From the NCBI GenBank assembly GCA_029001845.1, contig JAREWP010000093.1:1-64000 (forward strand): a stretch of 64,000 nt of DNA, given 5' to 3'. The DNA is from Candidatus Magnetocorallium paracelense (lineage in GTDB: Bacteria; Nitrospirota; Thermodesulfovibrionia; Thermodesulfovibrionales; Magnetobacteriaceae). Shown one piece after another: positions 40,001 to 61,481 of the stretch. The stretch's first letter is position 1. The number at the start of each line of letters is the position of its first letter. The translations under genes and the position numbers were made by a program. The notes beneath the pieces are model-generated. The model searched no databases and was not told the origin of the DNA. It saw only the letters and a program-made list of their open reading frames with translations.

Positions 40001-43000
40001 AGTGAGAGAGGTTGTTTCTTCACAGATAAATACCCTGTCAGCCCTTCGATTTCCTGATCCCGCCATTATAACCCAAAAAACAGAAATAGAAGTTGAAGTA
40101 TGGAAAAATACAAAGCAGTTTCATCTGAAAAAGGCAGGACAAATCATATGTTCAGGCAGGTTCGATATCACGGAAAAAGAATCTTCCGAACCTCTCTTAT
40201 TGGACGATTTATATAAAGGAAAGGTAACAAACCATGAAGATATATATTCATGGTTTCATGACTTTGGATACCATTATGGACCTGGAATGAGGCTTATAGA
40301 CAAAATTTGGGAAACTAAAGAGGCCTTTTTAGTTAAAATTATCCCTAAACCAACCCTTGAGGGAGATATAACGAAATTTGATCCCTTTATATTGGACTGT
40401 GTCTTTCAATCCGTCTTTTATGCAGGTCATACAATCGGTGATCTTTTCCAAAACAAATATTTATATCTTCCTTTAACAATAGGATCTCTACATCTGGCGG
40501 GCCCCCTTACAGATGAATGCTTTGCTCTTATTTCCAGGGAAAAACTCAGAATATTAGACAATAAGGATATGATCCTCGATATGGATGTATACGATAATAA
40601 CGGGCGGAACAAGATTCTGGAGATCAGGGAGATTCATTTTCGTCGTGTCCCCCGAAATTTCATCGATCAATATTTGGAAAAACAGCATAAAGAATTGGAG
40701 AATCCAATTGGAAAAAGAGATGAGAGCCTGGTGATTAAGGAGATCTTGTCGGTCATTGAATCTTATATAGAGGAAAATGCATCGGATATGAAACAGGTGG
40801 AAGAAGGGATGTCCCTGTTAGAGGATTATGGCAGATTACGCCTCTTTCATACCCTGTTCTTTAAAAACGGCGATGTGGTGACTAAAAAAGATATAAAGTT
40901 TATTGGAAAATATAAAAAATTGTCACGGGCGCTTTATGAAATGCTCGCTGTTTCGAAAATTATAGAGATGGAAGGAGAAAATGTTGTTATATCGAAAGAA
41001 TTTATCAGGGAAGATGATGTAATCGATAAGATTAAGGGCCTAAAGTCTTCCCTTGATGAAAAATATATAGCGATTAAACCTTTCCAAAACCTGCTTGAGT
41101 CTGCTGTCATTCAATATCCTGACGTGATATCAGGTAAAAAGAGCCATATGGAGGCCTTATTTCTCGGCGGGCAAACGGAACTCTTTAATCATGTGTATAA
41201 GGGAAACAGGCTGTCTGACTATTATAATCATCAGGTGAGATTAAGTCTGGAGACGATCATAAAGGAGAAACTGAAAGGCGATACAAATAAAAAGATAAAG
41301 ATCCTTGAATTAGGCGCCGGTATCGGAGGGACGACTGAGATTGTCCTTGATGGAATAAAATCTTATGGAGATCGAATCGAATATGTTTATACCGATATAT
41401 CCCTTGGATTTATCAATCTTGGCAGGAAGAGCTATGGTGATAAATATCCATTCTTAAGATTTCAACTGTTCGACCTTGAAAAGAAGGGAATTGAACAGGG
41501 ATTAGAGGAAAGTGAATTTGATATTATCCTGGCCACAAATACTCTCCATGCAACAAAAAATCTGGAACAAACCCTTTTAAATATAAAGGAGCTTTTAAAA
41601 AATAGTGAAGGTATACTCATTTTAAATGAAATCACCAGGGCTCAGGATTTTTGGACTATCGTGACCGGATTGATCAATGGCTGGTGGGTGTATCAGGATA
41701 ATGATCTGCGAATAAAAAATTCTCCCCTTGCTGATTTCGAAACCTGGAAGCGCCTTTTACATCAAGCGGGATTCCAGGATGTCCGCGGTTTTGACTTGAA
41801 GCGTAAAAGGGATTACGAACAAACCGTTATGATAGCCGTCCATAAAGCTGATCAGGCGAAAAAGGGTGATCATATCACTTCAAAAATGATAGAAAAAACG
41901 GATCATACCGTTTTATCGGATATATCGAAGGAAACATCCCGATATTTAAAAGAGATATTTGCCAAACAACTCCATTGTAAGATTGAAGAGATTGATGATA
42001 AGGGATCTTTTTCGGATGATTATGGGGTTGATTCCTTTGTCAATTTAGAAATAATCGAGATCCTAAAAAAAGAGTTTGGAGAAACTATACCCAATACTCT
42101 TTTATTTGAGTGCACAACCATGAAAAAGTTAACGGAATATGTAATAAATAACTTTGAAAGGGAACTCAAATTAAAACTTGGAGATTTCGAAACAGAAATG
42201 CCTGTAGAAAAAGAAAATCAGAGAGAGGAATCAGCGGAAGATCAAGGTGCTATTTATCCAGTCGGTCACAAAAGTATCCATGACGATTTTGCTCCATCTC
42301 AACGGGAGGAAGAAGATATTGCCATTATCGGATTAAACGGCCGTTTTCCTCTTTCGGAAGATGTCAATGCGTTGTGGGACCACCTTAAAAATGGAGAATC
42401 CTGTATCAGAGAAGTACCTGAAAGCAGATGGGATTACAGAAAATACTATGATCAAACAGGTAAGAGACCTGACAAAAGCTATACAAAGTATGGTGGTTTT
42501 CTGGATGACTACGACAAATTCGATGCCCCCTTTTTTCATATCTCACCCCGACAGGCGGAATTGATGGACCCCCAACAGCGGATTGTCCTTGAAACAGCCT
42601 GGGCTGTCATTGAAGACGCAGGATATACCAGGGCTGCGCTTCCGAGAAATACAGGCGTCTTTATCGGCGTTACAACCAACACCTATGGATTATGCGGATT
42701 GGAAGCATCACTAAAATCAGAGGAGACCTACTGCCCTGATACGGATAATTATGATGTACCCAACAGGGTATCCTATTTCTTTGATCTTCACGGCCCCAGT
42801 GTCGCCATCGATACCGCCTGCTCATCTTCTTTGAGCGCCATTCATATGGCGGTGAAAAGCCTGAAAAACAAGGAATCCGATGTGGCTATAGCAGGGGGTG
42901 TCAGTTTAACACTGCACCCCAACAGGGTAATTCAATTCTGCCAAAAGAGTATGCTGTTACCCGGAAAGGAGTGCCATCCCTTTGGACAAGGTGAGGGTGG

Positions 43001-46000
43001 CTTTGTCGATAGTGAGGGTGTGGCTCTTATCCTGTTAAAACCCCTGTTAAAAGCGATTAAAGATAGAGATCATATCTATGGAGTTATCAAGGGAACAGCC
43101 ATGAATTCAGGCGGGAAGACCAGTGGGTATACAGTACCCGATCCGGCGCGGCAGGCATCACTGGTTATAAATGCACTGGAAGATGCAAAGACAGACCCTG
43201 TTACCATCAGCTATATCGAAACTCACGGAACAGGCACAACACTTGGAGATCCTATAGAGGTGGAAGGACTCACAAAGGCCTTCAGGAAATATACGGATAA
43301 GACACAATACTGCCCAATCGGATCGATCAAGTCAAATATCGGCCATCTCATCGCGGCAGCCGGGGTTGCGGGGGTGACAAAGGTATTGCTCCAGATGAAA
43401 CACAAGACCCTGGTCCCGTCGATCCACTCTTCTTCTCCGAATTCTCACATAGATTTCAGTAAAACACCCTTTTTTGTTCAACAGAATCTTACAGAGTGGA
43501 AAAAACCTGAAATAGAGGGACGTCCATATCCCAGACGCGCGGGGATCAGCTCCTTTGGCGCGGGCGGCGCAAACGCCCATGTGATTATCGAGGAGTATGA
43601 GAGGGATCATTCGGATCTTAAGGTATCCTCTATAAAACCTTCTATAATTGTATTGTCCGCCAAAACAAAAGAGAGGTTACATGAATATATAAGAAAATTT
43701 TCGGATTGTTTAGAACTCGACATGGCAGGCGACGTAACTCTGGAAGATATCTCTTATACTTTGCAAACAGGCAGAGAAGCAATGGAGGAGCGTCTTGCCC
43801 TTATCGTTGACAGCAAAAATCAGCTTATTACAAAGCTGACAGATTACAGAAAGAGCAAGTCAGGGATAGAGGATTTGTATTCAGGCAATGTAAAAACAGA
43901 TAAAGGAACATCCGATCTATTGCTGAATGGAAACGCGGGAGAGGCATTTCTTGAAATCATAATAAAAGAGAGAAACCTTTCGAAATTGGCCCGCCTTTGG
44001 GTTACAGGAATTGAAATAGACTGGAACCTCCTTTACGGAGAGGTTAAACCGAGAAGAGTATCCCTCCCTGTCTATCCATTTGAAAAGAAACGTTACTGGT
44101 TCGATGATTACATTAAATTAAAAGAGGCTGAGAGAGAGGGGAAAAATACCTCTTCAATTTCGGATAAGGAAGAATCGAAAGATATACCGGAACAATCGAT
44201 AGAGATGCTTCAGAAACCTGAAAGTTATCGAGGCGATGAGGTTATCGTCCGTATCATAGACAATCATACGGGATTGGTGATCATGCAGGACAGGGAAGGG
44301 AGCAATACCTTTACAGAGAATCTGGTTTATGGACTCCAACAGGCCTTTCAGGAATTAAACCGGAACAGGGATATAAAGGTGATTGTCCTGACCGGCTACG
44401 ATAAGGTCTTTGCCATGGGAGGGAGTCAAAAGGATTTAACGAGATTATCAAGACAGGAAATTAACTTTACAAGTTTTAAATTCTTTTACCGGGGATTATT
44501 GGAAACCAGGGCGCCTGTTATAGTTGCCATGCAGGGCCATGCCTCGGGAGGCGGCCTGGTATTCGGCCTTTTCGGTGATATCATTATTATGGCAAGGGAG
44601 GGTGTTTACAGCGCCAACTTTATGGGCTATGGATTTACGCCGGGTCTTGGTACGACCTATATTCTGGAACAGAGATTCGGTAAAAGTCTGGCCACAGAGA
44701 TGATGTTTACCTCGAAATCCTATCGAGGCGCAGACCTGGAAAGGCGCGGAGGATCTGTTTTGTTTTGTAATCACGAGGCTGTGCTGAATGAAGCATTGAA
44801 TATGGCGAAAAACATGGTTGAAAAACCTGGGAAATCATTGGAAGTACTAAAAAAGGAACTTTCCGGACGTATTCTGGAACAACTCCCGTCTATTATTGAA
44901 AAAGAGGTTGTCATGCATGAGCATACATTCTCTTTACCGGAGGTCCGGAAGAACATAGAGAGCCATTTTCAAAAAGTCTCGGTCATAGGCAAAGCCGGGA
45001 ATGTGAATAATAAGCTAAAGCTTAAAGATCGGGAAGATATTTATTTACCGGCAAAAACTTCGGAGATAAATAATAGAAAGATGAGGTTAAAACCGCTTCA
45101 GGAACGATCGACAACAAATAATTCTTTAGAAAATTCTCCTGAGACAGCGGGGGATAACACAAATCCTGAGACCATGGAACCAACGCCTTTCAGGCCTGTA
45201 AAAAAATCAGCCCTCCATATTCGTAGTGAAGTGATCAATATCGTATCATCCCGCCTCCATATTAACAGGGAAGAAATAGACCCGGATATGCCGTTTCTTG
45301 AATTGGGAGTGGACTCCATAAGCGCAGTCGAAATTACACAGGACATTAATGAAAAGTTTCATATAACAAACCTTAGAGTGACGGACATATATAATCATCC
45401 CGATATATCATCCCTGACAAATTACCTGATGACCCTGGATATTGTTGATTATGATGTAAAAGTTGAATCCCACAGGATGCATATCGATGAAAAAGAGATC
45501 AGAGAGACCCCGGAGCCTCTGTTATTTTCTTCTATGAATACCACCGGTAATAAACCTCTTACAATAGAACCATACTCCAATCTCTACTTTCCGAAAAAGG
45601 AAACCGATATAGCTGTGATCGGTATATCGGCGCGATTCCCCGGCGCTGACAATGTTGAGCAATTCTGGCGGAATATCTGTGACAAAAGAGATGAAATAAG
45701 GGAAGTACCCAAAGACCGGTGGGACATTGGGCCTTACTTTCATCCTGACCCTGACAGGCCTGATAAGTCATACAGTAAATGGGGAGGTTTTCTGAAGGAT
45801 GTGGACAAGTTCGACCCGTTGTTTTTCGGTATTTCTCCCAAAGAGGCTGAAGTGATGGACCCCCAACAGCGCATACTTCTGGAAGAGGCATATCATACCA
45901 TCGAAGACGCCGGATACGACCCGGTTTACTTGTCAAAGGGGAAATGCGGCGTATTTATAGGCGCAGCCATGGGAGATTATTTGGGACGCAATAAGCCCGA

Positions 46001-49000
46001 TAATAACGTATATACCGGCTTTGCCTTTACCGGTCTGAACCTGTCCGTACTGGCAGGGAGAATCTCCTACTTTCTGGATTTGAAAGGCCCGGCCATTAGT
46101 ATCGACACAGCCTGCTCTTCCTCTCTCGCCGCCATTAGTATGGCCTGCCGGAGTATTGTGAGCAATGAATGTGACACTGCCCTGGCCGGAGGGATATCAT
46201 TGATGCACTCTCCCCTTCTCCATATCCAGGCAAGCCAGGCAGGTATGTTGTCAAAAGACGGGCGGTGCAAGCCCTTCAGTAACAGCGCAGATGGCATTGT
46301 TTTATCCGAAGGGGTGGGAATTATCCTTTTGAAACCCTATAAAAAGGCAATAGAGGACAATGATCATATTTATGGAGTTATCAAGGGATGGGGTACGAAT
46401 CAGGATGGTCATACAAACGGAATTACAGCCCCAAACCCTGAGGCACAGACAGAACTCGAACGTCATATTTATAAGGAATTCAATATCAATCCTGAGCACA
46501 TCCGCTACGCAGAGGCCCACGGGACAGGCACCAAACTGGGTGATCCCATTGAGATTAGAGGGTTAAGCGATGCCTTTAGGGAGTATACGAAGAAAAAAGG
46601 GTACTGCGCCATAGGTTCGGTGAAGAGCAATATCGGTCATACCACCATGGCGGCAGGTGTGGCAGGCTTGATAAAAGCGCTCCTTAGTCTGAAATATCGA
46701 GTGATACCACCGACGATCCATTGCGATGTTGAAAATGAACATATCGATTTTAAGGAAAGCCCTTTTTATCTGAACCGTGAGATCGGGAAATGGGAAAAAA
46801 CCGACAATACCGCCGGACTCGCCTGTGTCAGTTCCTTTGGGTTCAGCGGCACCAATGCCCATGTGGTGCTTGGGGAACACCTGCCGGATCATTCAATAAA
46901 AAGCAGAGACCAAATATCTACGCCAATTATCATACTCCTTTCCGCAAGAGATAAAGAGCAGCTCAGGAGAGTCGGGGAAAACCTGTTGAGCCACATCACC
47001 TTACACAAACCGGATATTTCAGACATGGCCTATACTCTCCAGGTAGGGAGAAAGGCCATGGCCCATAGAATTGCCTTTAAGGCGAAAGAGATGGATGATG
47101 TAAAAGAAAAGATATCCGAATATATTAACGGACAAGGCGAGGCAGCCGGTTTATGGGAAGGTGAGGTAAAGCTCAATCACGATCGTGTCACAATATTGGA
47201 AGAAGACGAGGATACGCAGGAGATGATTCGGAAATGGATATCAAAAGGTAAGGTCAGTAAACTGGCCGAACTCTGGGTAAAAGGATTGGACATTGACTGG
47301 AACCTCCTTTATGGGGAAGATAAACCCAGGAGAATTTCACTTCCCGCCTATCCCTTTGCTAAACAGAGATACTGGATACCGGATACAGGCCGAAAGATCG
47401 CAACCATACAATCAGGGATTACCCCGATTCATCCGCTTCTCCATGAAAACACCTCAACGTTACAACGGCAGCAATTCACCTCAACCTTTACCGGCGAAGA
47501 ATTCTTTCTCAGAGATCACCAGATCTTAAATGAAAAGGTTTTACCAGGGGTGGCATATTTGGAAATAGCCCTGGCAGCCGCCATAAAGGCCGTGGAGACG
47601 GATGACTGGAAAACCTGTAAACTCAAGGATATTATCTGGGCCGCGCCTGTCAAGGTCAATACCGGGCCCAGGGAAGTGAAGATAAACCTTTTCCCGGAAA
47701 CAGACAGCATTGCATACGAAGTGAGAACAGAAGACCCGGAAGCCGATCCGGATGAATCCCTGATTGTTCATAATCAGGGTAAGATAATCATAGACCCGGT
47801 CCGGTCAATTCCCACTGTCCTGGATATTCAGGCCATCAAGGAGCGGTGTACCGAACAATTGACTCCTCAAATATGCTACCGGACCTTTCAGAGTTTTGGT
47901 CTTCTCTATGGTCCCGCCTTTCAGGGAATCTCCGAACTCTATTACAACAATCAGGAGGTCCTGGCAAAAATAGAGATACCGGGATTAGATGAATCAAATT
48001 CCGGATTTTATCTCCATCCCGGCGTTCTGGACAGTGCATTGCAGGCGAGTCTGTGCCTGATCTTTGAAACTTTAAAAGGAACATCCACCCCTTATCTGCC
48101 TTTTGAACTTAAAGAACTGGAGATTTTTGAAATACCTCTTCCTGACACCATTTATGTTCATGTAACCTTTAGCAATAACAGCCTGCTCGATGAGATGGTA
48201 AAATATGACATTTCACTACTAAATCACCAGGGAGAAACAGTGGTGAGTCTAAAAGAGCTTGCTATCCGGCAGATGAGGGTGGGACGGGCTGGCCGGCGGG
48301 AACAGGCAAAACACTTAAATGAGTATGGCTTATTATACGCCACGCCTGAATGGAAAAATCAGAGTATTACCGGGACGACAGACTCAGCTTCGCAAGATAA
48401 AGAGCTTCATATGATCCTGATCGGCCAGAGTGAAGAGATGGCCCATACATTAAAAGAAAGACTCGCCCCAAAAACCGAGTTATCACTAACGACAATAAAC
48501 ACTCCTGAAGAGATCCTGGAGGCATTTAAGGTCTCTTTCCTGCATATAAAGGGCATAATAGAGAGTAAACCTTCTACACTTCAAACCATTATTGTTATAC
48601 CGTCAACGGATATTCCGGAATACTGTTACGCCCCTCTTACAGGGTTACTTAAGACGGCAACGCTTGAGCACACAAAGCTACAGGGAAAAGTCATTCAACT
48701 CCCGGAACTGACACCTGAACAGACAGCGGCTATCATTGAACAGGAGACGCAAACAACAGAGGATATGGAAGTTCGTTACCTTAAAGAGGATACCCAACGC
48801 CAGGTCAAAAGACTAATAGAAATAGAGCACCCTCCAGCCGGACCGATAAGTCCGCTCAAATCAGGCGGCGTATACTGGATAACCGGTGGTTTAGGGGGCT
48901 TGGGCCGGTTGTTTGCCGGAGAGTTTGCCAAAGCGGAAAATAGTACGATCATTCTCAGTAACCGGAGAGAACTCGATGAAATGAGTCAAAGAGAACTGGA

Positions 49001-52000
49001 AGAATTACAGAGAGAGGCCAAAGATCACCAAAGTACGGTTGAGTACGTTAGATGTGATGTAACCGACCGGGACTCAGTCATCGGGACAGTCAGAACCATC
49101 ATGGAAAACCATCATAAACTCACGGGTATTATCCATAGCGCCGGTGTAATAAAAGACAACTATATCCATAATAAGAGTGAGACCGAAATTGATGAAGTCA
49201 TGGCGCCCAAGATTTACGGCGCCTGGAACATAACTCAGGCCGTCTCAGGGGAAGAAGTCGATTTTATGGTTTTCTTTTCATCCATTGCAGGGATAAAGGG
49301 CAATCCGGGGCAGGCGGATTACGCAGGGGCCAATGCCTTCCTTGATGCCTTTGCCGATACTGAAAGCCGGGTCAACCGGAAGAAAATGGTCTCCATAAAC
49401 TGGCCCCTTTGGAAAGAAGGGGGCATGGAAGTCGAAAGCCGGACTGAAGAGATGTTGAAGCAGACTTTGGGCATCGTACCTTTAACAACAGAAAAGGGAT
49501 ATGCGGGGTTTCAATCGGCGCTAAACGGCCCATATAACCGGATAGTGGTTGCCGAAGGTCAATCCCGATTATTAAGGAAAAAACTATTGAATCAACCTTT
49601 ATTCAAATCGGACAGAAACAATGGGAATGCCCCGGAGGAGGTACTCAAAGAGAGGCTTAGACCGGAACTGACGGGAATCGTAAGCAATCTCATAATGATC
49701 AAACCTGAAGAACTGGATATAACCGATGATATCAGTGATTATGGCTTTGATTCCATACTGATTACGGAATTTATCAATAGAATTAAGAAAATATTCGATA
49801 TAAGTCTTATGCCGACCATCTTTTTTGAGTATAACACTCTTGAAGGTTTGATAAACTACCTGATAAAGGAACATGGAGCGGCGCTTCAGGATAAATATGG
49901 AATAAACAGAGATAAGGAAGATACAGAGGCTCACAAGATCGACATGACACCGGACGATCATATGCCGAATAATGCAATTAATCAAATAATTAGCAGAGGT
50001 CAACGGTTTATGGCTCCTCTCCAAATGGAGAGACCGAATAGGAAAGAGCCCATAGCTGTCATTGGAATGGCGGGAATCCTTCCTGAAGCGGAAAATCTGG
50101 ACCAATTTTGGGAAAATCTAATCCAGGGTAAAGAGTGTATAACCGAGATACCCAAAGACCGTTGGGACTGGAAGGCCTGTTACGGAGACCCAAACAGGGA
50201 AGAGGGGAAGACAAACGTCAAATGGGGCGGATTTATAAAGGATATCGATAAATTCGATCCCGCCTTTTTCAATATCTCCCCAAGGGAAGCCGAGCTGATG
50301 GACCCCCAGCAGCGGCTCTTCCTCCAATGCGTCTGGCATGCCATAGAACATGCCGGTTACAACCCAATGAGTCTCCGGGGCACCCAAACCGGCCTCTTCG
50401 TGGGAGTGGAAGGACAAGACTATCACGATCTCATAACAAAAAATCGCATAAAGACCGAGGCATACACGGCAACAGGCGTTGTACCATCCATGGCAGCCAA
50501 TCGAATCTCATTCTTATTGGGCTTTCATGGACCCAGCGAGCCGGTCTCAACAGCCTGTTCCAGCTCATTGGTCGCCATTCACCGGGCAGTGAGGGCCATT
50601 CATACGGGGGAGTGCGCTCAGGCCATTGCAGGGGGAGTCAATGCCATTCTTTCACCTGAGTTTCATATAAGTTTCAGCAAAGCGGGAATGCTCTCTGAAG
50701 ACGGGCGCTGCAAGACCTTCTCCGATAAGGCCGATGGATATGTAAGGGGAGAAGGGGTGGGGGCGATTCTGCTCAAACCCTTAAACCAGGCTATACAGGA
50801 TGGAGATAGGATTTACGCCGTAATCAGGGGGACTAGAACAAATCACGGCGGTCATGTAAACTCTCTTACTGCGCCTAATCCCAATGCCCAGGCGGAACTG
50901 ATAAAGGCCGCTTATGAAGAGGCCAATATTTCCCCTGATACCATCACCTACATAGAGACCCATGGCACAGGCACAGAACTGGGTGATCCCGTAGAGATTA
51001 ACGGCTTAAAAACGGCCTTTACATCTCTTTATGAAAAGTATCATCTCAAGGAACCTGAAAAACCGCATTGCGGAATCGGTTCCGTAAAGAGCAACATCGG
51101 CCATTTGGAGACTGCGGCGGGTATTGCAGGGCTGCTAAAGGTGATCCTGGCAATAAGGCATAAAGCAATTCCCCCTACGCTGCATTGTGACACCATCAAT
51201 CCCTATATAAATCTTCATAACACACCATTTTACATTGCCATGGAAAAAGGAGAATGGAAAAGCCTTACAGACAACTATGGAAATCCCGTACCGAGAAGGG
51301 CAGGTGTCAGTAGTTTCGGTTTTGGCGGCGCCTATGCCCATGTAGTGGTTGAAGAATTTTTAGAAACAGAAAAACCGGAAAATCAGGGAGTATCCCAAAA
51401 GGTGGTGATTCCCTTGTCGGCAAAAAACAGGATCCAATTAAAAAGTTACGCCCAACTCCTCACTGATGATCTGAATCAGAAAAAAGATAAAGACCTGGCT
51501 CATATAGCCTACACCCTCCAGACAGGCAGGGAGGCAATGAACAGCCGTATAGCCTTTTTGGTCAAAGATGTCGGTGAACTTAAGGAAAAACTCGACCAAT
51601 ATCTTAAGGGAGAAGAAGAGATAGAATATTTCCGAAAGGGGGAAGTTAAGATCAATCACGATGGCGTTGCAACCCTGACTATGGATGAAGACGCCAGGGA
51701 GATGATTCATAAATGGATTGCCAAAGATAAAATCGGCAAACTTGCAGATTTCTGGGTCAAAGGATTAAATATCGACTGGAATCTCCTCTATGGAGAAGTA
51801 AAGCCACAGAGAATAGCCCTCCCAGTCTATCCATTTGAAAAGAAACGTTACTGGTTTGACAGTTACAGGAAGTCCCAAAAGGCGAAGAAAGAGGAAAAAA
51901 ATGTTTCCTCCATTACAGATCAGGAAGAGTCAAAAAACGTCCGGGAAAGATCAACGGAATTGATCGCTAAGCCTGAAGATTATCGAGGTGATGAGGTTCT

Positions 52001-53384
52001 TGTCCGGATTATCAATAATCATATCGGAGTGGTCGTAATGCAGGACAGGGAGGGGACCAATACATTTACGGAAAATCTGGTTTACGGACTCCAACAGGCC
52101 TTTCAGGAATTAAAGGGAAACAAGGATATAAAGGTGATTGTTCTCACCGGCTATGATAAGGTATTCGCCATGGGAGGGGATCAAAAGGAGTTAACAAAAT
52201 TATCAAGGCGAGAGATCGAGTTTACAAGCTTTGCATTCTTTTACAAGGGACTGTTGGAATTGAAAGTCCCTGTTATTGTGGCCATGCAAGGCCATGCGTC
52301 GGGAGGCGGTTTGGTATTCGGCCTATTTGGTGATATGATTATCATGGCAAGAGAGGGTGTCTATAGTGCAAATTTTATGAGTTATGGCTTTACACCGGGT
52401 CTTGGGGCGACCTATATTCTGGAACAGAGGTTTGGTAAAAGCCTGGCCACGGAAATGATGTTTACATCTCGATCCTATAGAGGGGAAGAGCTGGAGAGAC
52501 GCGGGGGAACCGTCCTGTTTTGTAATCAGGAGATGGTGCTTAACGAAGCATTGAATGTGGCAAAAGAGTTGATTGAAAAACCGGGGAAATCATTAGAGGT
52601 TCTGAAGAAGGAACTTTCAGGGCGTATCCTGGAACAACTCCAATCTGTTATTGAAAAAGAGGCCGCCATGCATGCAGAGACATTCTCTTTACCTGAGGTG
52701 AAGAGGAACATTGAGAGCCATTTTCAGAAGGTTTCGGCTATGGGTAAAGGAGAATCAGGAAACGGGAAAAAGCCGCTGAAACTGAAAGATCCGAAAGATA
52801 TCTGTTTACCGGAAGAATCAAAGGACTCAAATAATAAAAAGATGAGATTAAAACCACTTCAAGATATGGCCGCAACAGATAATGCCTTCAATATCGATGA
52901 TACTTCCGTCACAGGGAACAATCCTCTGGCCATGGAGCCGGCCTTGAAACCTGTAAAAAGACCAGCCATGGATATTGAAACCGAGGTGATCAATATCCTA
53001 TCCGATCTGCTCCATATTGACAGGGACGATATAGACAGGGATATGCCCTTTCTTGAGTTGGGAGTGGACTCCATAAGCGCGGTGGAAATTATCCAGAAAA
53101 TAAATGAAAGATTTCATATAATAAGCCTTAAAGTAACCGATATATATGATTACCCTGATGTATCGTCTTTAATAAGACATATAGAGTCCCTGGACATAGC
53201 CGCTTTTAATCCTGAATCGGGAATGAAAAACCCGGATATAATGATTGACAGGCCATTCGAAAAGCATGAAAGTAGCAATGGAGATGAGATCGATAATTTA
53301 CTGAAGAGTTGTAAATCTATGAAAGTTTCTCCAAAAGAGGCTGCAAAACTATTTGTTAAAGGAGATATCTCTGAAAACATTTAG
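37008..53384 (+). CDS. Four-module trans-AT polyketide synthase with two embedded ECH domains
   Basis: A single 5458-residue protein with a TTG start (GAGGG ten bases upstream). Module 1: KS (Cys177, His312, His352; site reads AACAAS), a degenerate AT (about 525-720), DH-like domain lacking its His (about 964-1215), C-methyltransferase (SAM motif ILELGAGIGG near 1432) and ACP Ser1676. Module 2: KS Cys1938, ECH (about 2403-2662), ACP Ser2770. Module 3: KS Cys3036, DH (His3504, Asp3675), KR (TGGLGGLG, Tyr4105), ACP Ser4249. Module 4: KS Cys4517, ECH (about 4989-5245), ACP Ser5355. No working AT is present, so malonyl loading is in trans. The ECH domains carry ANFMGYGFTPGLG or ANFMSYGFTPGLG, the ECH2 decarboxylase type, and match the HMGS cassette at 29.4 kb. 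No thioesterase; the tail (5400-5458) may dock to another protein. Confidence 0.95.
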   Translation: MSLHTIPKQDIAIIGMACRFPGAKDYHAFWNNLINGVNSIREIPPERWDISTYYSPNKNKPNRSISKWCGLLDNIDQFDHRFFSISPREAKSMDPQQRLLLEETWHCIEDSGISIKVLQEKKTSIYVGVMAGDYHSKGSEMITDSYTALGNYESILANRISYTFGFHGASLTINAACAASMAALHNAQTILLSGESDYAIAAGVNLNIHPWKYISFSKSRMLSPYGQCKTFDKDANGYVPGDGVGVLLLQPLKDALRDKCHIYGIIKGSAVNHVGHTASITAPSVDGQRGVIIDACKKAGVSPETVTYVEAHGTGTSLGDPIEVEALTRAFREYTDQKQFCRIGSVKTNIGHLEGAAGIAGIIKVLLMMNCKKIPPTLNIKTLNPVINFEDSPFIVATELEEWPERGKNQPLRAGISSFGFGGVNTHVILESMENHIPSILEESNEKQPFIVTAKSPAAFKNTLQGWREFVNGDLYPTYRLIDICGTNITAREAFSHGFGCYVSSKDELKEILSKEIEPASRQSEHPWSLIIGECNWEGFVDPVKHMLSEHPLLKDKLDLLLNEFSKIIRIKKSTIHEEFYQPVWIETKKPLYSFIVNHAILLTTMEFGFKPSLLTGEGSGIWQALTLSGIIKKEELFKILKGRKKPEEAALSRPALPFYDPVTKQTIMTYRIDARYLSTLIDDMAINEEESRFFIEKSRMMHTNQYTFKKYLEQWGSRLKERSNKELSVMLYDDQLLFNTDDLNQKERLLFVIILAASHHYVEQKWNLSKVKEISDKKFNELLDLVLDGVMTQEALIDLFTQKEPDLYAIAALLNERQGRLNKEKAYPFLKRHSQAIPALPDHDDWFTKVMETSMPELDGHNRLKLGGTLKENNDRVIHIASKELNNNNNSILRNILLRLWLKGVDIKWNLFYRNGSFHKIPLPVYGFDRMSFWLNGKGENKMKDRKGYSELIKSHDNPNTFTRELDPEKDAIITDTIVEGFFITPSPLRIEMALQAVREVVSSQINTLSALRFPDPAIITQKTEIEVEVWKNTKQFHLKKAGQIICSGRFDITEKESSEPLLLDDLYKGKVTNHEDIYSWFHDFGYHYGPGMRLIDKIWETKEAFLVKIIPKPTLEGDITKFDPFILDCVFQSVFYAGHTIGDLFQNKYLYLPLTIGSLHLAGPLTDECFALISREKLRILDNKDMILDMDVYDNNGRNKILEIREIHFRRVPRNFIDQYLEKQHKELENPIGKRDESLVIKEILSVIESYIEENASDMKQVEEGMSLLEDYGRLRLFHTLFFKNGDVVTKKDIKFIGKYKKLSRALYEMLAVSKIIEMEGENVVISKEFIREDDVIDKIKGLKSSLDEKYIAIKPFQNLLESAVIQYPDVISGKKSHMEALFLGGQTELFNHVYKGNRLSDYYNHQVRLSLETIIKEKLKGDTNKKIKILELGAGIGGTTEIVLDGIKSYGDRIEYVYTDISLGFINLGRKSYGDKYPFLRFQLFDLEKKGIEQGLEESEFDIILATNTLHATKNLEQTLLNIKELLKNSEGILILNEITRAQDFWTIVTGLINGWWVYQDNDLRIKNSPLADFETWKRLLHQAGFQDVRGFDLKRKRDYEQTVMIAVHKADQAKKGDHITSKMIEKTDHTVLSDISKETSRYLKEIFAKQLHCKIEEIDDKGSFSDDYGVDSFVNLEIIEILKKEFGETIPNTLLFECTTMKKLTEYVINNFERELKLKLGDFETEMPVEKENQREESAEDQGAIYPVGHKSIHDDFAPSQREEEDIAIIGLNGRFPLSEDVNALWDHLKNGESCIREVPESRWDYRKYYDQTGKRPDKSYTKYGGFLDDYDKFDAPFFHISPRQAELMDPQQRIVLETAWAVIEDAGYTRAALPRNTGVFIGVTTNTYGLCGLEASLKSEETYCPDTDNYDVPNRVSYFFDLHGPSVAIDTACSSSLSAIHMAVKSLKNKESDVAIAGGVSLTLHPNRVIQFCQKSMLLPGKECHPFGQGEGGFVDSEGVALILLKPLLKAIKDRDHIYGVIKGTAMNSGGKTSGYTVPDPARQASLVINALEDAKTDPVTISYIETHGTGTTLGDPIEVEGLTKAFRKYTDKTQYCPIGSIKSNIGHLIAAAGVAGVTKVLLQMKHKTLVPSIHSSSPNSHIDFSKTPFFVQQNLTEWKKPEIEGRPYPRRAGISSFGAGGANAHVIIEEYERDHSDLKVSSIKPSIIVLSAKTKERLHEYIRKFSDCLELDMAGDVTLEDISYTLQTGREAMEERLALIVDSKNQLITKLTDYRKSKSGIEDLYSGNVKTDKGTSDLLLNGNAGEAFLEIIIKERNLSKLARLWVTGIEIDWNLLYGEVKPRRVSLPVYPFEKKRYWFDDYIKLKEAEREGKNTSSISDKEESKDIPEQSIEMLQKPESYRGDEVIVRIIDNHTGLVIMQDREGSNTFTENLVYGLQQAFQELNRNRDIKVIVLTGYDKVFAMGGSQKDLTRLSRQEINFTSFKFFYRGLLETRAPVIVAMQGHASGGGLVFGLFGDIIIMAREGVYSANFMGYGFTPGLGTTYILEQRFGKSLATEMMFTSKSYRGADLERRGGSVLFCNHEAVLNEALNMAKNMVEKPGKSLEVLKKELSGRILEQLPSIIEKEVVMHEHTFSLPEVRKNIESHFQKVSVIGKAGNVNNKLKLKDREDIYLPAKTSEINNRKMRLKPLQERSTTNNSLENSPETAGDNTNPETMEPTPFRPVKKSALHIRSEVINIVSSRLHINREEIDPDMPFLELGVDSISAVEITQDINEKFHITNLRVTDIYNHPDISSLTNYLMTLDIVDYDVKVESHRMHIDEKEIRETPEPLLFSSMNTTGNKPLTIEPYSNLYFPKKETDIAVIGISARFPGADNVEQFWRNICDKRDEIREVPKDRWDIGPYFHPDPDRPDKSYSKWGGFLKDVDKFDPLFFGISPKEAEVMDPQQRILLEEAYHTIEDAGYDPVYLSKGKCGVFIGAAMGDYLGRNKPDNNVYTGFAFTGLNLSVLAGRISYFLDLKGPAISIDTACSSSLAAISMACRSIVSNECDTALAGGISLMHSPLLHIQASQAGMLSKDGRCKPFSNSADGIVLSEGVGIILLKPYKKAIEDNDHIYGVIKGWGTNQDGHTNGITAPNPEAQTELERHIYKEFNINPEHIRYAEAHGTGTKLGDPIEIRGLSDAFREYTKKKGYCAIGSVKSNIGHTTMAAGVAGLIKALLSLKYRVIPPTIHCDVENEHIDFKESPFYLNREIGKWEKTDNTAGLACVSSFGFSGTNAHVVLGEHLPDHSIKSRDQISTPIIILLSARDKEQLRRVGENLLSHITLHKPDISDMAYTLQVGRKAMAHRIAFKAKEMDDVKEKISEYINGQGEAAGLWEGEVKLNHDRVTILEEDEDTQEMIRKWISKGKVSKLAELWVKGLDIDWNLLYGEDKPRRISLPAYPFAKQRYWIPDTGRKIATIQSGITPIHPLLHENTSTLQRQQFTSTFTGEEFFLRDHQILNEKVLPGVAYLEIALAAAIKAVETDDWKTCKLKDIIWAAPVKVNTGPREVKINLFPETDSIAYEVRTEDPEADPDESLIVHNQGKIIIDPVRSIPTVLDIQAIKERCTEQLTPQICYRTFQSFGLLYGPAFQGISELYYNNQEVLAKIEIPGLDESNSGFYLHPGVLDSALQASLCLIFETLKGTSTPYLPFELKELEIFEIPLPDTIYVHVTFSNNSLLDEMVKYDISLLNHQGETVVSLKELAIRQMRVGRAGRREQAKHLNEYGLLYATPEWKNQSITGTTDSASQDKELHMILIGQSEEMAHTLKERLAPKTELSLTTINTPEEILEAFKVSFLHIKGIIESKPSTLQTIIVIPSTDIPEYCYAPLTGLLKTATLEHTKLQGKVIQLPELTPEQTAAIIEQETQTTEDMEVRYLKEDTQRQVKRLIEIEHPPAGPISPLKSGGVYWITGGLGGLGRLFAGEFAKAENSTIILSNRRELDEMSQRELEELQREAKDHQSTVEYVRCDVTDRDSVIGTVRTIMENHHKLTGIIHSAGVIKDNYIHNKSETEIDEVMAPKIYGAWNITQAVSGEEVDFMVFFSSIAGIKGNPGQADYAGANAFLDAFADTESRVNRKKMVSINWPLWKEGGMEVESRTEEMLKQTLGIVPLTTEKGYAGFQSALNGPYNRIVVAEGQSRLLRKKLLNQPLFKSDRNNGNAPEEVLKERLRPELTGIVSNLIMIKPEELDITDDISDYGFDSILITEFINRIKKIFDISLMPTIFFEYNTLEGLINYLIKEHGAALQDKYGINRDKEDTEAHKIDMTPDDHMPNNAINQIISRGQRFMAPLQMERPNRKEPIAVIGMAGILPEAENLDQFWENLIQGKECITEIPKDRWDWKACYGDPNREEGKTNVKWGGFIKDIDKFDPAFFNISPREAELMDPQQRLFLQCVWHAIEHAGYNPMSLRGTQTGLFVGVEGQDYHDLITKNRIKTEAYTATGVVPSMAANRISFLLGFHGPSEPVSTACSSSLVAIHRAVRAIHTGECAQAIAGGVNAILSPEFHISFSKAGMLSEDGRCKTFSDKADGYVRGEGVGAILLKPLNQAIQDGDRIYAVIRGTRTNHGGHVNSLTAPNPNAQAELIKAAYEEANISPDTITYIETHGTGTELGDPVEINGLKTAFTSLYEKYHLKEPEKPHCGIGSVKSNIGHLETAAGIAGLLKVILAIRHKAIPPTLHCDTINPYINLHNTPFYIAMEKGEWKSLTDNYGNPVPRRAGVSSFGFGGAYAHVVVEEFLETEKPENQGVSQKVVIPLSAKNRIQLKSYAQLLTDDLNQKKDKDLAHIAYTLQTGREAMNSRIAFLVKDVGELKEKLDQYLKGEEEIEYFRKGEVKINHDGVATLTMDEDAREMIHKWIAKDKIGKLADFWVKGLNIDWNLLYGEVKPQRIALPVYPFEKKRYWFDSYRKSQKAKKEEKNVSSITDQEESKNVRERSTELIAKPEDYRGDEVLVRIINNHIGVVVMQDREGTNTFTENLVYGLQQAFQELKGNKDIKVIVLTGYDKVFAMGGDQKELTKLSRREIEFTSFAFFYKGLLELKVPVIVAMQGHASGGGLVFGLFGDMIIMAREGVYSANFMSYGFTPGLGATYILEQRFGKSLATEMMFTSRSYRGEELERRGGTVLFCNQEMVLNEALNVAKELIEKPGKSLEVLKKELSGRILEQLQSVIEKEAAMHAETFSLPEVKRNIESHFQKVSAMGKGESGNGKKPLKLKDPKDICLPEESKDSNNKKMRLKPLQDMAATDNAFNIDDTSVTGNNPLAMEPALKPVKRPAMDIETEVINILSDLLHIDRDDIDRDMPFLELGVDSISAVEIIQKINERFHIISLKVTDIYDYPDVSSLIRHIESLDIAAFNPESGMKNPDIMIDRPFEKHESSNGDEIDNLLKSCKSMKVSPKEAAKLFVKGDISENI
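44215..45490. repeat. Internal duplication: ECH-ACP segment of PKS module 2
   Basis: This segment is highly similar at the DNA level to 51965-53230 of module 4. For example, CTGGTTTATGGACTCCAACA and ATGAAGCATTGAATATGGC recur almost unchanged. The KS regions just upstream are far less alike, so only the ECH-ACP cassette was recently copied or homogenised by gene conversion. Confidence 0.8.
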
Positions 53385-56239: not shown

Positions 56240-59218
56240 ATGACTGTTGAATTGAAAAACAAAGAGCTTAAAAAAATAACAATTTTTGTCTCCTCACCAG
56301 GGGATGTAGAGAATGAGCGGGCCAGAGTTAAAGAGGCAGCGGCCCGGCTAAACCGTATGATTAATAACAGCCTTGCTGTTGTCCTGGAGGTATTGGACTG
56401 GAAGACCCACATTGTACCCGATATGGGCAGGCCTCAGGGGGTTATCAATGATCAGTTAGGGGATTACGATATTTTTGTGGGCATATTGTGGAAGAGGTTC
56501 GGGACTCCCACGGGTAAGACAGAATCAGGGACAGAGGAAGAGTTTAACAATGCCTTTGAGAATTGGCGGAAACATGGCAGGCCCCGCATTCTGTTTTATT
56601 TTAATCAAACGCCTTATACGCCGAAAGATATGTCTGAAATGAAGCAATGGACTAAAGTAATGGAATTTAAAGAGAAGTTTTGGAAGGAACAAAAAGGTCT
56701 TGTCATGGAGTATGAGAATGCCGAGGCATTTTCAAACCTGCTTGGAGAACACCTGTTCAAGCTGCTGCAGGAATGGTTCCCGCCGAAATATGGCACAGAC
56801 CGTGCACCTATAACCGATTTTACAGCCTACCTGAAATATTTAAAACAGGAAACCATGCATATAGACATAAGAGGTCTGGTGACGGGAAAGGGAAAGATCC
56901 ATCAGTTTCCCATAGAGGAACTCTATATACCATTGCGTACCCGTTACGGATTAAGGCCGGCCAGTAATTTAGTAAAGGAAAGGTTTAATGAAGGGGATCA
57001 ATTGTTAGAGGAGGCGTTGAAAAGTGAAAAGCTGTTTATAAAGGGAGATCCCGGTTCAGGAAAGACGACATTCTTGAGGCTGATAGCGAATAAACTGTGC
57101 AGGAGACTGCTAGGGGATTCGACCGGTTCAATGGGCCTGTTTACCGAATATAATCCTTTGCCCTTATTAATAAGGCTAGGCTCTCTAAGTCGCTACATAA
57201 GCACTTGTAAAGACAGGCCTGGATTTCCCTGCCCTGTAGAAACAGACAGTCCGAAATGGCTGCTTCACTACCTTGAGGATTTGAGTGACGAGTTTAACTG
57301 GAAGGTAACAGGGGAGATGTTAGAAAAGGAGTTAAAGGAAGGACGCTGCCTGATAATGCTGGACGGACTGGACGAGGCCCCGGACCGGCATGTGCGGCTT
57401 TATTTGAGCCGATTGGCGGAGAATTTGTTAAGGGCCTGGCCGAAGTGCAGATTGGCGATGACAAGCAGACCGGCGGCTTTGGCGGATGGAGACGTAGCGC
57501 CCGGGGAATTTGAGATGGTGGAGATAGCGCCTTTAGATGGCAGAGGGAAAGAGGAGTTTTTGAATCGTTGGTGTGCGATCCTTTATGGAGAAGCACCGAA
57601 TAAAGGGAGGGAGTACAAAAAGGAGCTTAAAGAGGCGTTGGATCACAGACAGATAAGTATAATGGCAAAGACGCCGGTAATGCTAACGGCTCTGGCAGTG
57701 GTGCACTGGAATGAAAACAGGCTTCCGGAGCAGAGAGCGGAGCTGTACGAATCGGTATTGACGTGGCTGTTCAGGTCAAGGGAGGATAAGGAAGGGAGGA
57801 TAAAGGCGGAGAGGTGCAGAAAGCTGCTGCAGAAATTGGCTCTGGCCATGTTTACCCATGAAGGAGGGAGACAGAAACAGGTGGGGATAAGATGGGCGGG
57901 AGAGAGGATTGCCGGAGAGTTTAAGGAGGTTGTGGAAACAGAGAGGATAGAGAATGCGGAGGAATTTTTGCAAAGGGAGATGGTGGACAGTGGTGTAATA
58001 GTGGAGCGTGAATTAAGGGTGGAATTCTGGCACCTGAGTTTTCAGGAGTATCTGGCGGCCTATGAGATAGGAGGAATATCGGATGATAATCAGGAAAAGG
58101 TGTTGTTTCATGAAGAGAGCTTGTACAGGAGTGAGTGGAGAGAGGTGGTGATGCTGCTTGGAGGAGTGTTGTATAAGCAGGGGGACGAGAGGATCAATAA
58201 TCTTATAGACCGGATAATAGAGAGAGCGCCGAAGGAAAGGGGAAATGAAAAGCTGGCGGAGAAAGCGAAGGTCTGCGCGTTGCTGGGGGGAGTCGTACAA
58301 GATCTGTCGCCCTATAATTATGAGCCGTTGAATCCGGAATACAGGGAGATAATAAAGAGTGTAATGGGGATATTCGATAAAGAGGTGTTCAGGAGTATCC
58401 CGGTAAAGATAAGAGAGGAGGCTGCGGACGCGTTGGGGAGAGTGGGAGATCCGAGGTTTGACAGGGAGAAGGAGTTGTGGGTGAGGATACGGGGAGGGAA
58501 GTTTTGGATGGGGGCGCAGAGAGAAGATCCGAAGGGGAGGAATTATGATGGAGATGCTGATACAATTTGGGATGAATCACCGGTACACGAGGTGAGCTTA
58601 TCGGAGTATTGGATAGGGAAGTATCCGGTGACGGTGAATCAGTACAAAGGATTTATGGATGGAGGAGGTTATGAGGAGGAGAAGTACTGGAAATTCGGGG
58701 GATTTGGTGAGTACAAAGAACCGGAAAATTGGCAGGAGCAATTAGGGCATCCCACAAGACCGGTGGTAAGTGTAAGCTGGTATGAGGCAAAGGCATACGC
58801 GGAATGGGCAGGGAAACGTTTGGCGACAGAGGCGGAGTGGGAGAGAGCGGCGCGGGGGCCAGGAGAGGAGTACAGGAAATGGCCGTGGGGAGACAAAGAG
58901 CCCGATAAGGAGACAATGAACTATGGTGGAAATGTGGGACATGCAACACCGGTGGAAATATTTCCGGAAAGCATTTCCCCGGAGGGAGTGATAGACATGG
59001 CGGGAAATGTGTGGGAGTGGGTAGAGGATTGCTACGGAGATTACCAATCGGGTAGTACAGTTGATCCTATCGGTCCTGAAGAGGGCTCGTTCCGTGTTAT
59101 TCGCGGTGGCGGCTGGCTCTACGACGCGTCCTACTGCCGATCGGCGAATCGTAGCGGGGGCGAGCCCGGCGATCGGGACGGCTTTCTTGGGTTTCGCCTT
59201 GCCTTTTCGAGGTCTTAA
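56240..59218 (+). CDS. DUF4062-NACHT-FGE protein, likely DGR-diversified conflict/immune receptor
   Basis: This 992-residue protein has three parts. DUF4062 (about 12-120; ITIFVSSPGDVENERARVKE, DYDIFVGILWKRFG) is followed by an NACHT STAND ATPase with Walker A GDPGSGKTT from residue 269 and Walker B CLIMLDGLDEAPD near 371, plus helical winged-helix-like segments. From about 745 to the end lies an FGE-sulfatase (C-type-lectin-like) domain (IRGGKFWMGAQREDPKG, GNVWEWVEDCYGDY, GFRLAFSRS). NACHT proteins oligomerise on ligand sensing, and DUF4062 is a predicted signalling/effector partner. The terminal lectin fold ends in variable repeat 1. Residues 350-930 are encoded by purine-rich DNA unlike the neighbours; the variable repeat is abruptly GC-rich. 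Confidence 0.9.
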   Translation: MTVELKNKELKKITIFVSSPGDVENERARVKEAAARLNRMINNSLAVVLEVLDWKTHIVPDMGRPQGVINDQLGDYDIFVGILWKRFGTPTGKTESGTEEEFNNAFENWRKHGRPRILFYFNQTPYTPKDMSEMKQWTKVMEFKEKFWKEQKGLVMEYENAEAFSNLLGEHLFKLLQEWFPPKYGTDRAPITDFTAYLKYLKQETMHIDIRGLVTGKGKIHQFPIEELYIPLRTRYGLRPASNLVKERFNEGDQLLEEALKSEKLFIKGDPGSGKTTFLRLIANKLCRRLLGDSTGSMGLFTEYNPLPLLIRLGSLSRYISTCKDRPGFPCPVETDSPKWLLHYLEDLSDEFNWKVTGEMLEKELKEGRCLIMLDGLDEAPDRHVRLYLSRLAENLLRAWPKCRLAMTSRPAALADGDVAPGEFEMVEIAPLDGRGKEEFLNRWCAILYGEAPNKGREYKKELKEALDHRQISIMAKTPVMLTALAVVHWNENRLPEQRAELYESVLTWLFRSREDKEGRIKAERCRKLLQKLALAMFTHEGGRQKQVGIRWAGERIAGEFKEVVETERIENAEEFLQREMVDSGVIVERELRVEFWHLSFQEYLAAYEIGGISDDNQEKVLFHEESLYRSEWREVVMLLGGVLYKQGDERINNLIDRIIERAPKERGNEKLAEKAKVCALLGGVVQDLSPYNYEPLNPEYREIIKSVMGIFDKEVFRSIPVKIREEAADALGRVGDPRFDREKELWVRIRGGKFWMGAQREDPKGRNYDGDADTIWDESPVHEVSLSEYWIGKYPVTVNQYKGFMDGGGYEEEKYWKFGGFGEYKEPENWQEQLGHPTRPVVSVSWYEAKAYAEWAGKRLATEAEWERAARGPGEEYRKWPWGDKEPDKETMNYGGNVGHATPVEIFPESISPEGVIDMAGNVWEWVEDCYGDYQSGSTVDPIGPEEGSFRVIRGGGWLYDASYCRSANRSGGEPGDRDGFLGFRLAFSRS
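59084..59203 (+). repeat. DGR variable repeat 1 (VR1)
   Basis: This 120-bp GC-rich block codes for the last FGE strands (GSFRVIRGGGWLYDASYCRS, ANRSGGEPGDRDGFLGFRLA). It aligns with 61049-61169, with 19 substitutions; in every substituted column at least one of the two copies has adenine. The invariant 3' part TCTTGGGTTTCGCCTTGCC and about 60 bp beyond it are the likely IMH-type anchor. No template repeat was noticed in this window. Confidence 0.85.
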
Positions 59219-59324
59219 ACTTTGTCCTTTTAGACTTTTACCCTTTTAAATTTTTTTTGGAAAGCAAAATAGTTAATAAAGGCACGATGTGGAAAAAATT
59301 TTTTTTTGAAAGGTGTTATTGTTG

Positions 59325-59670
59325 ATGCTACAAATAAAGGTGTTTACATTGCGATTTAATGATGAGGCAGAGGGGTTTGATGATGAAGTTATCCGTGCCT
59401 TTTTAGCTGACAAAGCGATTCTTTCTCTAAACTCTCAATTCTTCGTAAGAGATAATGTGCCCTATTGGAGTGTCATTGCAGTATATAAGTCTTTTCCGGG
59501 TAAGGTAGATTCAGCTAATGTTCGAGAGAAACAATTTGAAGAAAAGAAAGACTATTACCGCTCTCTTCTAACTGAAGCAAGCACACCTTTGTTTAATCTG
59601 CTAAGAGAATGGCGGAATGAAAAAGCCAAAAAAGAGGGACTTCCGCCATATATCCTGTGCCTTTATCCCG
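59325..59670 (+). pseudogene. Truncated DGR-associated HRDC-type accessory protein
   Basis: From ATG 59325 (AAAGGTG upstream) the frame reads MLQIKVFTLRFNDEAEGFDD, then IRAFLADKAILSLNSQFFVR and LLREWRNEKAKKEGLPPYIL. This is the N-terminal beta domain and first helix of the HRDC-containing proteins often found beside DGR reverse transcriptases. After PPYILC the conserved HRDC helices are missing; the frame continues to 59864 as unrelated residues and overlaps the TIR gene. The break coincides with GC-rich DNA holding a hairpin (59700-59752). Recognition is from memory of the family, so moderate confidence. Confidence 0.6.
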
Positions 59671-59699
59671 CGCCGGGGCGCACCCGGACGAAGAGAGAC

Positions 59700-59752
59700 A
59701 GACCGCTGCGACCGGTAGGTCCTGCTGAAGGATTCGAAGGTGGCAGCGGTCT
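59700..59752. repeat. GC-rich stem-loop between HRDC relic and TIR gene
   Basis: AGACCGCTGC (59700-59709) pairs exactly with GCAGCGGTCT (59743-59752) around a 33-base loop. It could be a transcript hairpin or the scar of a deletion that removed the rest of the HRDC gene. Its position directly ahead of the TIR start at 59780 could also affect that gene's translation. Confidence 0.55.
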
Positions 59753-59779
59753 CATTTCTATACGAGGTTATCCCTTACC

Positions 59780-61258
59780 ATGGAAGATTTATTCGAATAC
59801 GATGTATTTTTATGTTTTGCCGGCAAGGATGAAGAGTTGGTTAAACCGCTTTGGCAGGAGATGAGTCTGAGCGGATTACGTGTATTCTGGTCCGATGAGA
59901 CACTAAAAGAAAATGTTGGCCAATCCTTTTTCGAAGTGATTCAGAGCGCCTTGGTGAAGAGCAGGCATTTTCTTTTGTTTTGCACGGACAAGGCCATGCT
60001 CTCCGAATGGGTAAGAATAGAATACGTAACATTTTTCAATGAATGCTACTTACCATCCAGGAGAAAACGAAGGCTGGTATTATTTAAAACAAAGGATTTT
60101 GATAAATCTTCTCTACCACCGTTTTTAAGGACCATACAATTAACAGAGTCATCGGAAGAGGTGATAAAAAACCTCGGCGGTGTTGATATCCTGATGTTGA
60201 AAAGGGAGAATAAAAGGCTCAATGAAAAAGTTAAGCTGGCTGAGGGAGAAATATTTGAATTAAAAGGAGAGATTACAAAGAGGACAAAGGCGTATAAAGC
60301 TCTGCAAGGACGTTTTAGAGACCATATATCCTTAAAAGAGCATGAGGAGAGATTGAAGGAAAGGGAAAGAGAGATATGGAAAAAGGTGGATTTGGTTGAA
60401 AAGCAGGATGTAGATATTCAATCAACAGGGTCTGAAATTAAAGCCGGGGCGATTTTAGAAAAAGAGATAAAAAAACAGGTTTTTACCTTTGCCTATATTC
60501 CCCCCGGTGAGTTCAATATGGGCAGCCCTTCCGATGAGCCCGGAAGAAGAAATGATGAAATCCTCCATAAGGTGACGTTGATAAAGGGTTTTTATATGCA
60601 GACAACGCAGGTGACACAGGGCCAGTGGAAGGCGGTAATGGGGGACAATCCTTCAAATTTTAAAGAGTGTGGAGATGATTGCCCCGTAGAGACGGTATCC
60701 TGGAATGACGTCAATGATTTTATAAAGAAGCTGAATGAATTGAATGGCAGTGACGGCAAATACAGACTTCCCACAGAGGCGGAATGGGAATACGCGGCCA
60801 GAGCCGGTACGGATACGCCCTTTGCCTTTGGAAAGTGTCTGTCCACAGATGACGCCAATTACAGTGGTAATCATCCTTTGGAAGGCTGTCCTAAAGGAGA
60901 GTATCGCAGGAAAACGATTCCTGTGGGAAGCTTAAAAGCAAACAATTGGGGGTTGTACGACATGCATGGGAATGTGTGGGAGTGGGTGGAGGATCGGTAT
61001 GGGGATTATCCCGCAGGCAGTGTAAGCGATCCTGTCGGGCCTGAATCGGGCTCGATCCGTGTTGTTCGCGGTGGCGGCTGGAACTACGACGCGTCCTGCT
61101 GCCGTTCGGCGTTTCGTGACGGGAACGTGCCCGGCATTCGGATCAACCTTTCTTGGGTTTCGCCTTGCCTTTTCGAGGTCTTAAACTTTGTCCTTTTAAA
61201 CTTTTACCCTTTTAAAATTTTTTTGGAAAGCAATATGGGCAACATCTCAAAAAGTTGA
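59780..61258 (+). CDS. TIR-coiled-coil-FGE protein with frameshifted DGR variable end
   Basis: The N-terminal TIR domain (about 5-130) opens with YDVFLCFAGKDEELV and has SEWVRIE with Glu81 at the NADase catalytic position. A long charged coiled coil (about 145-215) and an FGE/C-type-lectin domain from about 233 (FAYIPPGEFNMGSP, RLPTEAEWEYAARAG, GNVWEWVEDRYGDY) follow. The terminal variable repeat has an extra C near 61148. After RIN the frame shifts to SWVSPCLFEVLNF and runs to 61258, ending inside a MITE. Without the insertion the protein would end LGFRLAFSRS at 61184. The lectin core strand is therefore altered and the present protein is probably defective, unless this is a sequence error. 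Confidence 0.85.
   Translation: MEDLFEYDVFLCFAGKDEELVKPLWQEMSLSGLRVFWSDETLKENVGQSFFEVIQSALVKSRHFLLFCTDKAMLSEWVRIEYVTFFNECYLPSRRKRRLVLFKTKDFDKSSLPPFLRTIQLTESSEEVIKNLGGVDILMLKRENKRLNEKVKLAEGEIFELKGEITKRTKAYKALQGRFRDHISLKEHEERLKEREREIWKKVDLVEKQDVDIQSTGSEIKAGAILEKEIKKQVFTFAYIPPGEFNMGSPSDEPGRRNDEILHKVTLIKGFYMQTTQVTQGQWKAVMGDNPSNFKECGDDCPVETVSWNDVNDFIKKLNELNGSDGKYRLPTEAEWEYAARAGTDTPFAFGKCLSTDDANYSGNHPLEGCPKGEYRRKTIPVGSLKANNWGLYDMHGNVWEWVEDRYGDYPAGSVSDPVGPESGSIRVVRGGGWNYDASCCRSAFRDGNVPGIRINLSWVSPCLFEVLNFVLLNFYPFKIFLESNMGNISKS
61049..61169 (+). repeat. DGR variable repeat 2 (VR2), with one-base insertion
   Basis: This 121-bp block is homologous to 59084-59203. It encodes SIRVVRGGGWNYDASCCRSA, FRDGNVPGIRIN, then the frameshift. 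Relative to VR1 it has 19 substitutions, each with adenine in one copy, and one inserted C at about 61148. Taking A wherever either copy has it gives an inferred template rich in AAC and AAT codons (W-N-Y, N-R-N-G-N, N-R-N-N), exactly what known template repeats look like. Confidence 0.85.
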
Positions 61259-61395
61259 GGTAATTCTCCCCCTCACCTCAATCCTCTCCCCCAGGGGAGA
61301 GGAGGTTTTAAAGAAAAAAGATCCCCTCTCCCCTGGGGGAGAGGGTTAGGGTGAAGGGGGTCTTTTTCAAAGACCTCAACTTTTTGAGAACTTAC
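61237..61395. mobile_element. MITE inserted downstream of VR2, with 6-bp target duplication
   Basis: CAATAT flanks the element on both sides (61231-61236 and 61396-61401). The uninterrupted arrangement is preserved downstream of VR1 (GGAAAGCAAAATAGTTAATA), which fixes the insertion point. The ends carry CTCAAAAAGTTGAGGT as inverted repeats, and the core has CCCTCTCCCCTGGGGGAGAG palindromes. It belongs to the family at 54635 and 55725. It supplies the present stop codon of the frameshifted TIR gene. Confidence 0.85.
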
Positions 61396-61481
61396 CAATA
61401 TAGTTGATAAAGGCGCGATGTGAAAAAAATTTTTTTTGTAAGGGCTCTACAGCTTTTCAGCTTAAAATGTTCGGAGGTAAG

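Follow-up and report, generated by a model that had tools for sequence, protein, structure and literature searches.

The window, a 64,000-nt stretch of DNA from Candidatus Magnetocorallium paracelense (contig JAREWP010000093.1), most likely harbors the stump of a DGR, from which a deletion took the machinery and left two target genes that are most likely frozen. We give this reading a probability of roughly 0.85. The remnant is the first two-thirds of an HRDC accessory gene, lying between two FGE target genes with hypervariable ends.

The frame of the HRDC fragment starts with an ATG at 59325, reads MLQIKVFTLRFNDEAEGFDDEV...WRNEKAKKEGLPPYILC and reaches a TGC at 59658-59660. These 112 codons (59325-59660, forward strand) constitute the 5' part of a DGR-linked HRDC accessory gene whose 3' end is missing, as indicated by the Pfam HRDC match, homology to the plasmid pPAES01 and presence in single copy. 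A tblastn search returned as best match (E=2e-22) the annotated HRDC gene in the DGR of Prosthecochloris aestuarii plasmid pPAES01 (NC_011061.1), with 37% identity over 111 residues (99% of the fragment), and searches of the whole genomes of relatives gave matches with E=6e-10 and 8e-8. The Pfam HRDC match (PF00570; E=1.2e-4 to 1.9e-4) scored 22.4 or 21.7 bits, slightly below the curated cut-off of 23.8 bits, and covered positions 4-26 of the 68 in the domain, compared to 4-68 in the intact homologue that was tested. The fragment matches the entire N-terminal part of DGR-linked HRDC proteins and the start of the HRDC domain, and lacks the complete C-terminal domain (PF00570) of such accessory proteins. 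Its closest homologues (in pPAES01 and in the genomes G265 and G001) are encoded beside Avd and DGR RT genes in intact DGRs. The resemblance to the N-terminal part of DGR-linked HRDC proteins that a preliminary description had proposed for this frame is confirmed by these matches, which place the fragment in the HRDC family and not in an unrelated one. Judged by its homology, the fragment descends from a DGR-linked HRDC accessory protein and survives as a truncated relic, no longer a complete member of the group. The same description had suggested looking for an intact copy beside an RT, and the search of the window's own genome revealed no second HRDC copy. Relatives of the fragment were likewise not found in the viral contigs and phages that were searched. 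The single match in a genome-contig collection (L019) was rejected as short and antisense to a RecQ-like gene.

Homology stops at residue 112, in the sequence PPYILC (59660), inside the HRDC domain. At this point the intact HRDC protein of pPAES01 reads ...KKEGIPPYVICNNKELAKITAARPQSL... and the window reads ...KKEGLPPYILC|LYPAPGRTRTKR. The open reading frame itself remains formally open as far as 59864, past the point (59780) where the next gene begins. The 119 bases from the end of PPYILC to that gene (59661-59779, forward strand) bear no relation to HRDC homologues. Folding, copy search and Rfam describe them as single-copy, non-homologous sequence, which would comprise the breakpoint region of the deletion and the leader of target 2. 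The break was correctly placed ahead of a GC-rich hairpin in the preliminary description; its fragment end at 59775 has to be moved to 59660, where the homologous part ends. The hairpin (about 59700-59755) has 10+3+6 base pairs, and a 96-nt stretch that contains it folds with -50 kcal/mol. No second copy of 59661-59779 was detected in the window's own genome, and alignment of the junction to the variable repeats (VRs) in search of a template repeat (TR) remnant was no better than that of shuffles. An interpretation of the hairpin as a mobile element or a known RNA was rejected, given its one copy in the genome, no viral match and no Rfam family.

The two genes that flank the fragment are both encoded on the forward strand. 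Target gene 1 (56240-59218, 992 aa) combines DUF4062 (5.6e-7), a NACHT NTPase (5.7e-10) and a C-terminal FGE-sulfatase domain of C-type-lectin fold (4.2e-54), all recognized with Pfam. Target gene 2 (59780-61258) encodes a TIR domain (TIR_2, 2e-11), a coiled coil and an FGE-sulfatase domain (3e-46), with a C-terminus changed by a frameshift in its VR. Mutual alignment placed VR1 at 59083-59186 and VR2 at 61048-61152 (approximate limits, forward strand). One of the two copies has an A at 19 of the 21 VR1/VR2 differences (59081-59186), as against 10 of 22 in the stretch immediately upstream (58994-59080; Fisher test for A-involving differences, p=0.003), and the VRs are clean outside A-bearing sites. 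Since the differences occur almost only where one copy has A, both VRs were probably diversified from one shared template by adenine mutagenesis, to judge from the two sequences. Both genes have the FGE domain and the 3'-terminal VR varying at adenine-derived sites that characterize DGR targets, the latter deduced from comparison of the two VRs. A 1-nt insertion near 61144 shifts the frame of VR2 and replaces the conserved GFRLAF end, which is present in target 1, with an unrelated tail.

Duplication of the 3' ends of the targets includes their flanks (blastn of 58994-59270 against 60959-61236, 83% identity). The 3' flank of target 1 (59187-59322, forward strand) encompasses the gene end, a T-rich element and the sequence up to the HRDC start, and is shared with target 2 up to 59313. 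Its homologue behind target 2 (61153-61440, forward strand) was delimited by blastn and by a 49-bp block, and is split by an insertion. Flank identity amounts to 81 of 84 bases up to 59270 and to 88% over the 49 bp past the insertion. The insertion itself (61237-61395, unstranded) is a MITE-like palindrome with visible inverted repeats, flanked by CAATAT duplications and absent from the target 1 copy, for which Rfam returned sub-threshold hairpin matches only. The T-rich element at 59225-59260 (of the type TTTTACC-TTTT) follows shortly after the VR; elements of this type are located behind the VR of every FGE target compared (the window, L018, L017, L057 and L080), in two phyla, and may play a part in recognizing the target or in termination. 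On either side of the stump is a giant polyketide synthase gene, one at 37008-53384 of the window (5458 aa) and the other running from about position 1202 of L012 (at least 5975 aa).

Intact cassettes of relatives reveal what may once have followed the fragment. The order in pPAES01 is an FGE target (4849-5751), HRDC (6001-6480), avd (6452-6814), RT (6811-7824), TR (about 7831-7932), a small ORF and a second FGE target (8593-9384). The TR of this plasmid (L080:7831-7932) lacks about 24 nt that are present in its VR1, between AACAACAA repeats. In G001, a genome of the same family, a trypsin-FGE target is followed by HRDC, Avd (NCBIfam NF033474, 103 bits, cut-off 80 bits), RT and TR, and 20 of 21 TR/VR mismatches fall on TR adenines. 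In G265, from the same order, the succession is FGE target, HRDC, GIY-YIG ORF, Avd, RT and TR, with TR adenines at 19 of 22 mismatches; the GIY-YIG ORF between HRDC and Avd occupies L057:7036-7338. The RTs of all three cassettes have the motif GLPIGNLTSQ in common, and the available text of the DiGReF survey ties the SQ motif to DGR RTs (PMC3521204). Two other relatives, G006 and G007 (L082, L083, L091), encode longer RTs (533-613 aa as open frames), and genes that weakly resemble Avd lie nearby.

In the window, G265, G004, pPAES01 and G001 alike, the next gene after the target is HRDC, in the same orientation, and the distances from target stop to HRDC start are 106, about 90, 127, 249 and 336 bp, respectively. 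In G004, a fourth relative, a kinase-FGE gene precedes an HRDC gene that is truncated after 120 aa and matches positions 4-46 of the 68 in the domain. No Avd was found in this genome, which is 79% complete, and the stretch beside its HRDC gene contains no DGR RT and no Avd or RT remnants. This locus is apparently a second stump.

The window's own genome (6.0 Mb in 103 contigs, 99.6% complete) contains none of the three parts that make a DGR functional. An RT with xGxxxSQ, a form of the DGR RT motif, is missing both at the locus and among the seven RT matches of the genome. The latter are group II-like RTs or fragments, an RT-Cas1 fusion on C33 and an RT beside Cas1 on C44 (CRISPR-linked, recognized by eye; L003 and L016), and a small RT on C76 with the motif QGSPCSP. 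No Avd exceeded the cut-off of 80 bits, the best match in the genome reaching 23.7 bits on another contig, and neither the window nor the rest of the contig holds remnants of Avd or RT. A genome search for the TR with the VR pattern, in which adenine-capable sites were left free and 3 mismatches were allowed, recovered the two VRs of the window only. The absence of RT, TR and Avd, together with the same layout in pPAES01, supports the initial proposal of a once-complete DGR cassette between the targets from which RT and template were deleted.

The history that best accommodates these patterns would begin with the order target 1 (NACHT-FGE), HRDC, Avd, RT, TR and target 2 (TIR-FGE), in which the C-type-lectin ends of the two targets would have been diversified by mutagenic retrohoming from one shared TR. 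Subsequently, a deletion starting at HRDC codon 112 and ending in the leader of target 2 would have removed the 3' part of HRDC together with Avd, RT and TR, about 2 kb in total (about 2.1 kb if spacing was as in pPAES01). The VRs would now most likely be frozen, and VR2 would since have gained its uncorrected 1-nt frameshift, with nothing left to overwrite it. That one deletion event took place, how large it was, and that living cells no longer diversify the VRs are inferences. Note that a rearrangement bringing in target 2 is not separated from the deletion, because the junction has no recognizable RT or TR remnant.

The preliminary description had allowed for targets served by a distant DGR or frozen, and the second outcome fits better because VR2 is frameshifted and the searches yielded neither another TR nor a DGR-type RT. 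The local cassette could be broken and an intact DGR elsewhere (unassembled, on a plasmid or phage, or in part of the population) could still diversify the VRs in trans. Degenerate loci of Thiohalocapsa PB-PSB1 do vary, in trans or as part-broken populations (PMC10907252), and with VR1 and VR2 clean outside A-bearing sites the loss may have happened recently. Because the genome is 99.6% complete and in 103 contigs, it could lack a piece, or an extrachromosomal element, that carries a DGR. However, the frameshift of VR2 and a genome devoid of DGR-type RT, TR and Avd over cut-off make ongoing diversification from a distance unlikely. Similar VRs together with a TR can confuse assemblers, and the true locus could be intact and its reads wrongly joined, but the junction falls in single-copy sequence, a false join would be expected within the repeats, and no orphan RT/TR contig exists. 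We therefore consider an assembly artefact very improbable. An equally slight chance is left to an origin of the HRDC fragment outside DGRs, with its position beside the targets due to chance. Proteins of roughly 410 aa near DUF488 genes, which occur in the same order (L030, L031), are weakly similar to the fragment (34 and 30 bits), but the fragment is much closer to the DGR HRDCs (97 bits to pPAES01 and 60 bits to G265), begins with its own ATG and immediately follows a VR-bearing target, the position that HRDC has in intact DGRs. The proteins of L030 and L031, in which the same N-domain and HRDC are C-terminal, are encoded beside DUF488-like genes outside any DGR, and the DGR accessory gene may have been derived from them.

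The truncated gene could alternatively encode a working short protein, with the N-terminal domain under selection without the HRDC bundle. Its 112 codons are free of stops, and G004 also carries a truncated HRDC (120 aa) directly behind an FGE target. Against this, the truncations of the window and G004 end at different points, the frame in the window extends through non-homologous bases into the following gene, and the genome of G004 has a completeness of just 79%; we regard this explanation as improbable. We hold similarly low expectations for truncation as a recurrent, selected end state, in which the N-domain or leader would still serve the target (e.g., by fixing a chosen variant) or would label the locus as a homing site for a mobile DGR that acts in trans. 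This idea arises because the window's genome and G004 have both lost Avd, RT and TR and retain the target with its 3' flank and the 5' portion of HRDC.

Read as a stump, the locus shares with the pPAES01 DGR an FGE target, an HRDC gene that belongs to the same family and has the corresponding position, a second FGE target downstream, and target 3' ends duplicated with their 3' flank. In contrast, pPAES01 keeps Avd, RT and TR between HRDC and target 2, and the translations of its FGE targets contain neither NACHT nor TIR parts. G001 and G265 share the order of target (FGE), HRDC, Avd, RT and TR, but are complete and have one target each at the locus, with the GIY-YIG ORF added in G265. In the available text on Treponema denticola, strains without RT and TR keep leftover target genes, so that VR-bearing targets outlast the core DGR, which there includes the HRDC accessory gene (PMC4891356). 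That text describes no truncated HRDC, and phylum and targets are different (PMC4891356). Thiohalocapsa PB-PSB1 likewise has STAND NTPase- and TIR-type conflict-protein targets with FGE C-type-lectin ends, key machinery that is missing or pseudogenized, and MITE-like elements nearby, whereas it keeps complete DGRs and several of its degenerate loci still vary (PMC10907252). Among the papers searched, none mentions both DGRs and Magnetobacterium.

Leftover and degenerate DGRs are already documented, and the locus leaves this picture unchanged. It provides a clean case in which diversification was lost and diversified sensor-like genes remain, with the ancestral layout visible on a plasmid from another phylum. 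It also adds a lineage whose NACHT- and TIR-type conflict proteins were DGR targets, and offers a place to ask if bacteria profit from freezing a DGR-made receptor.
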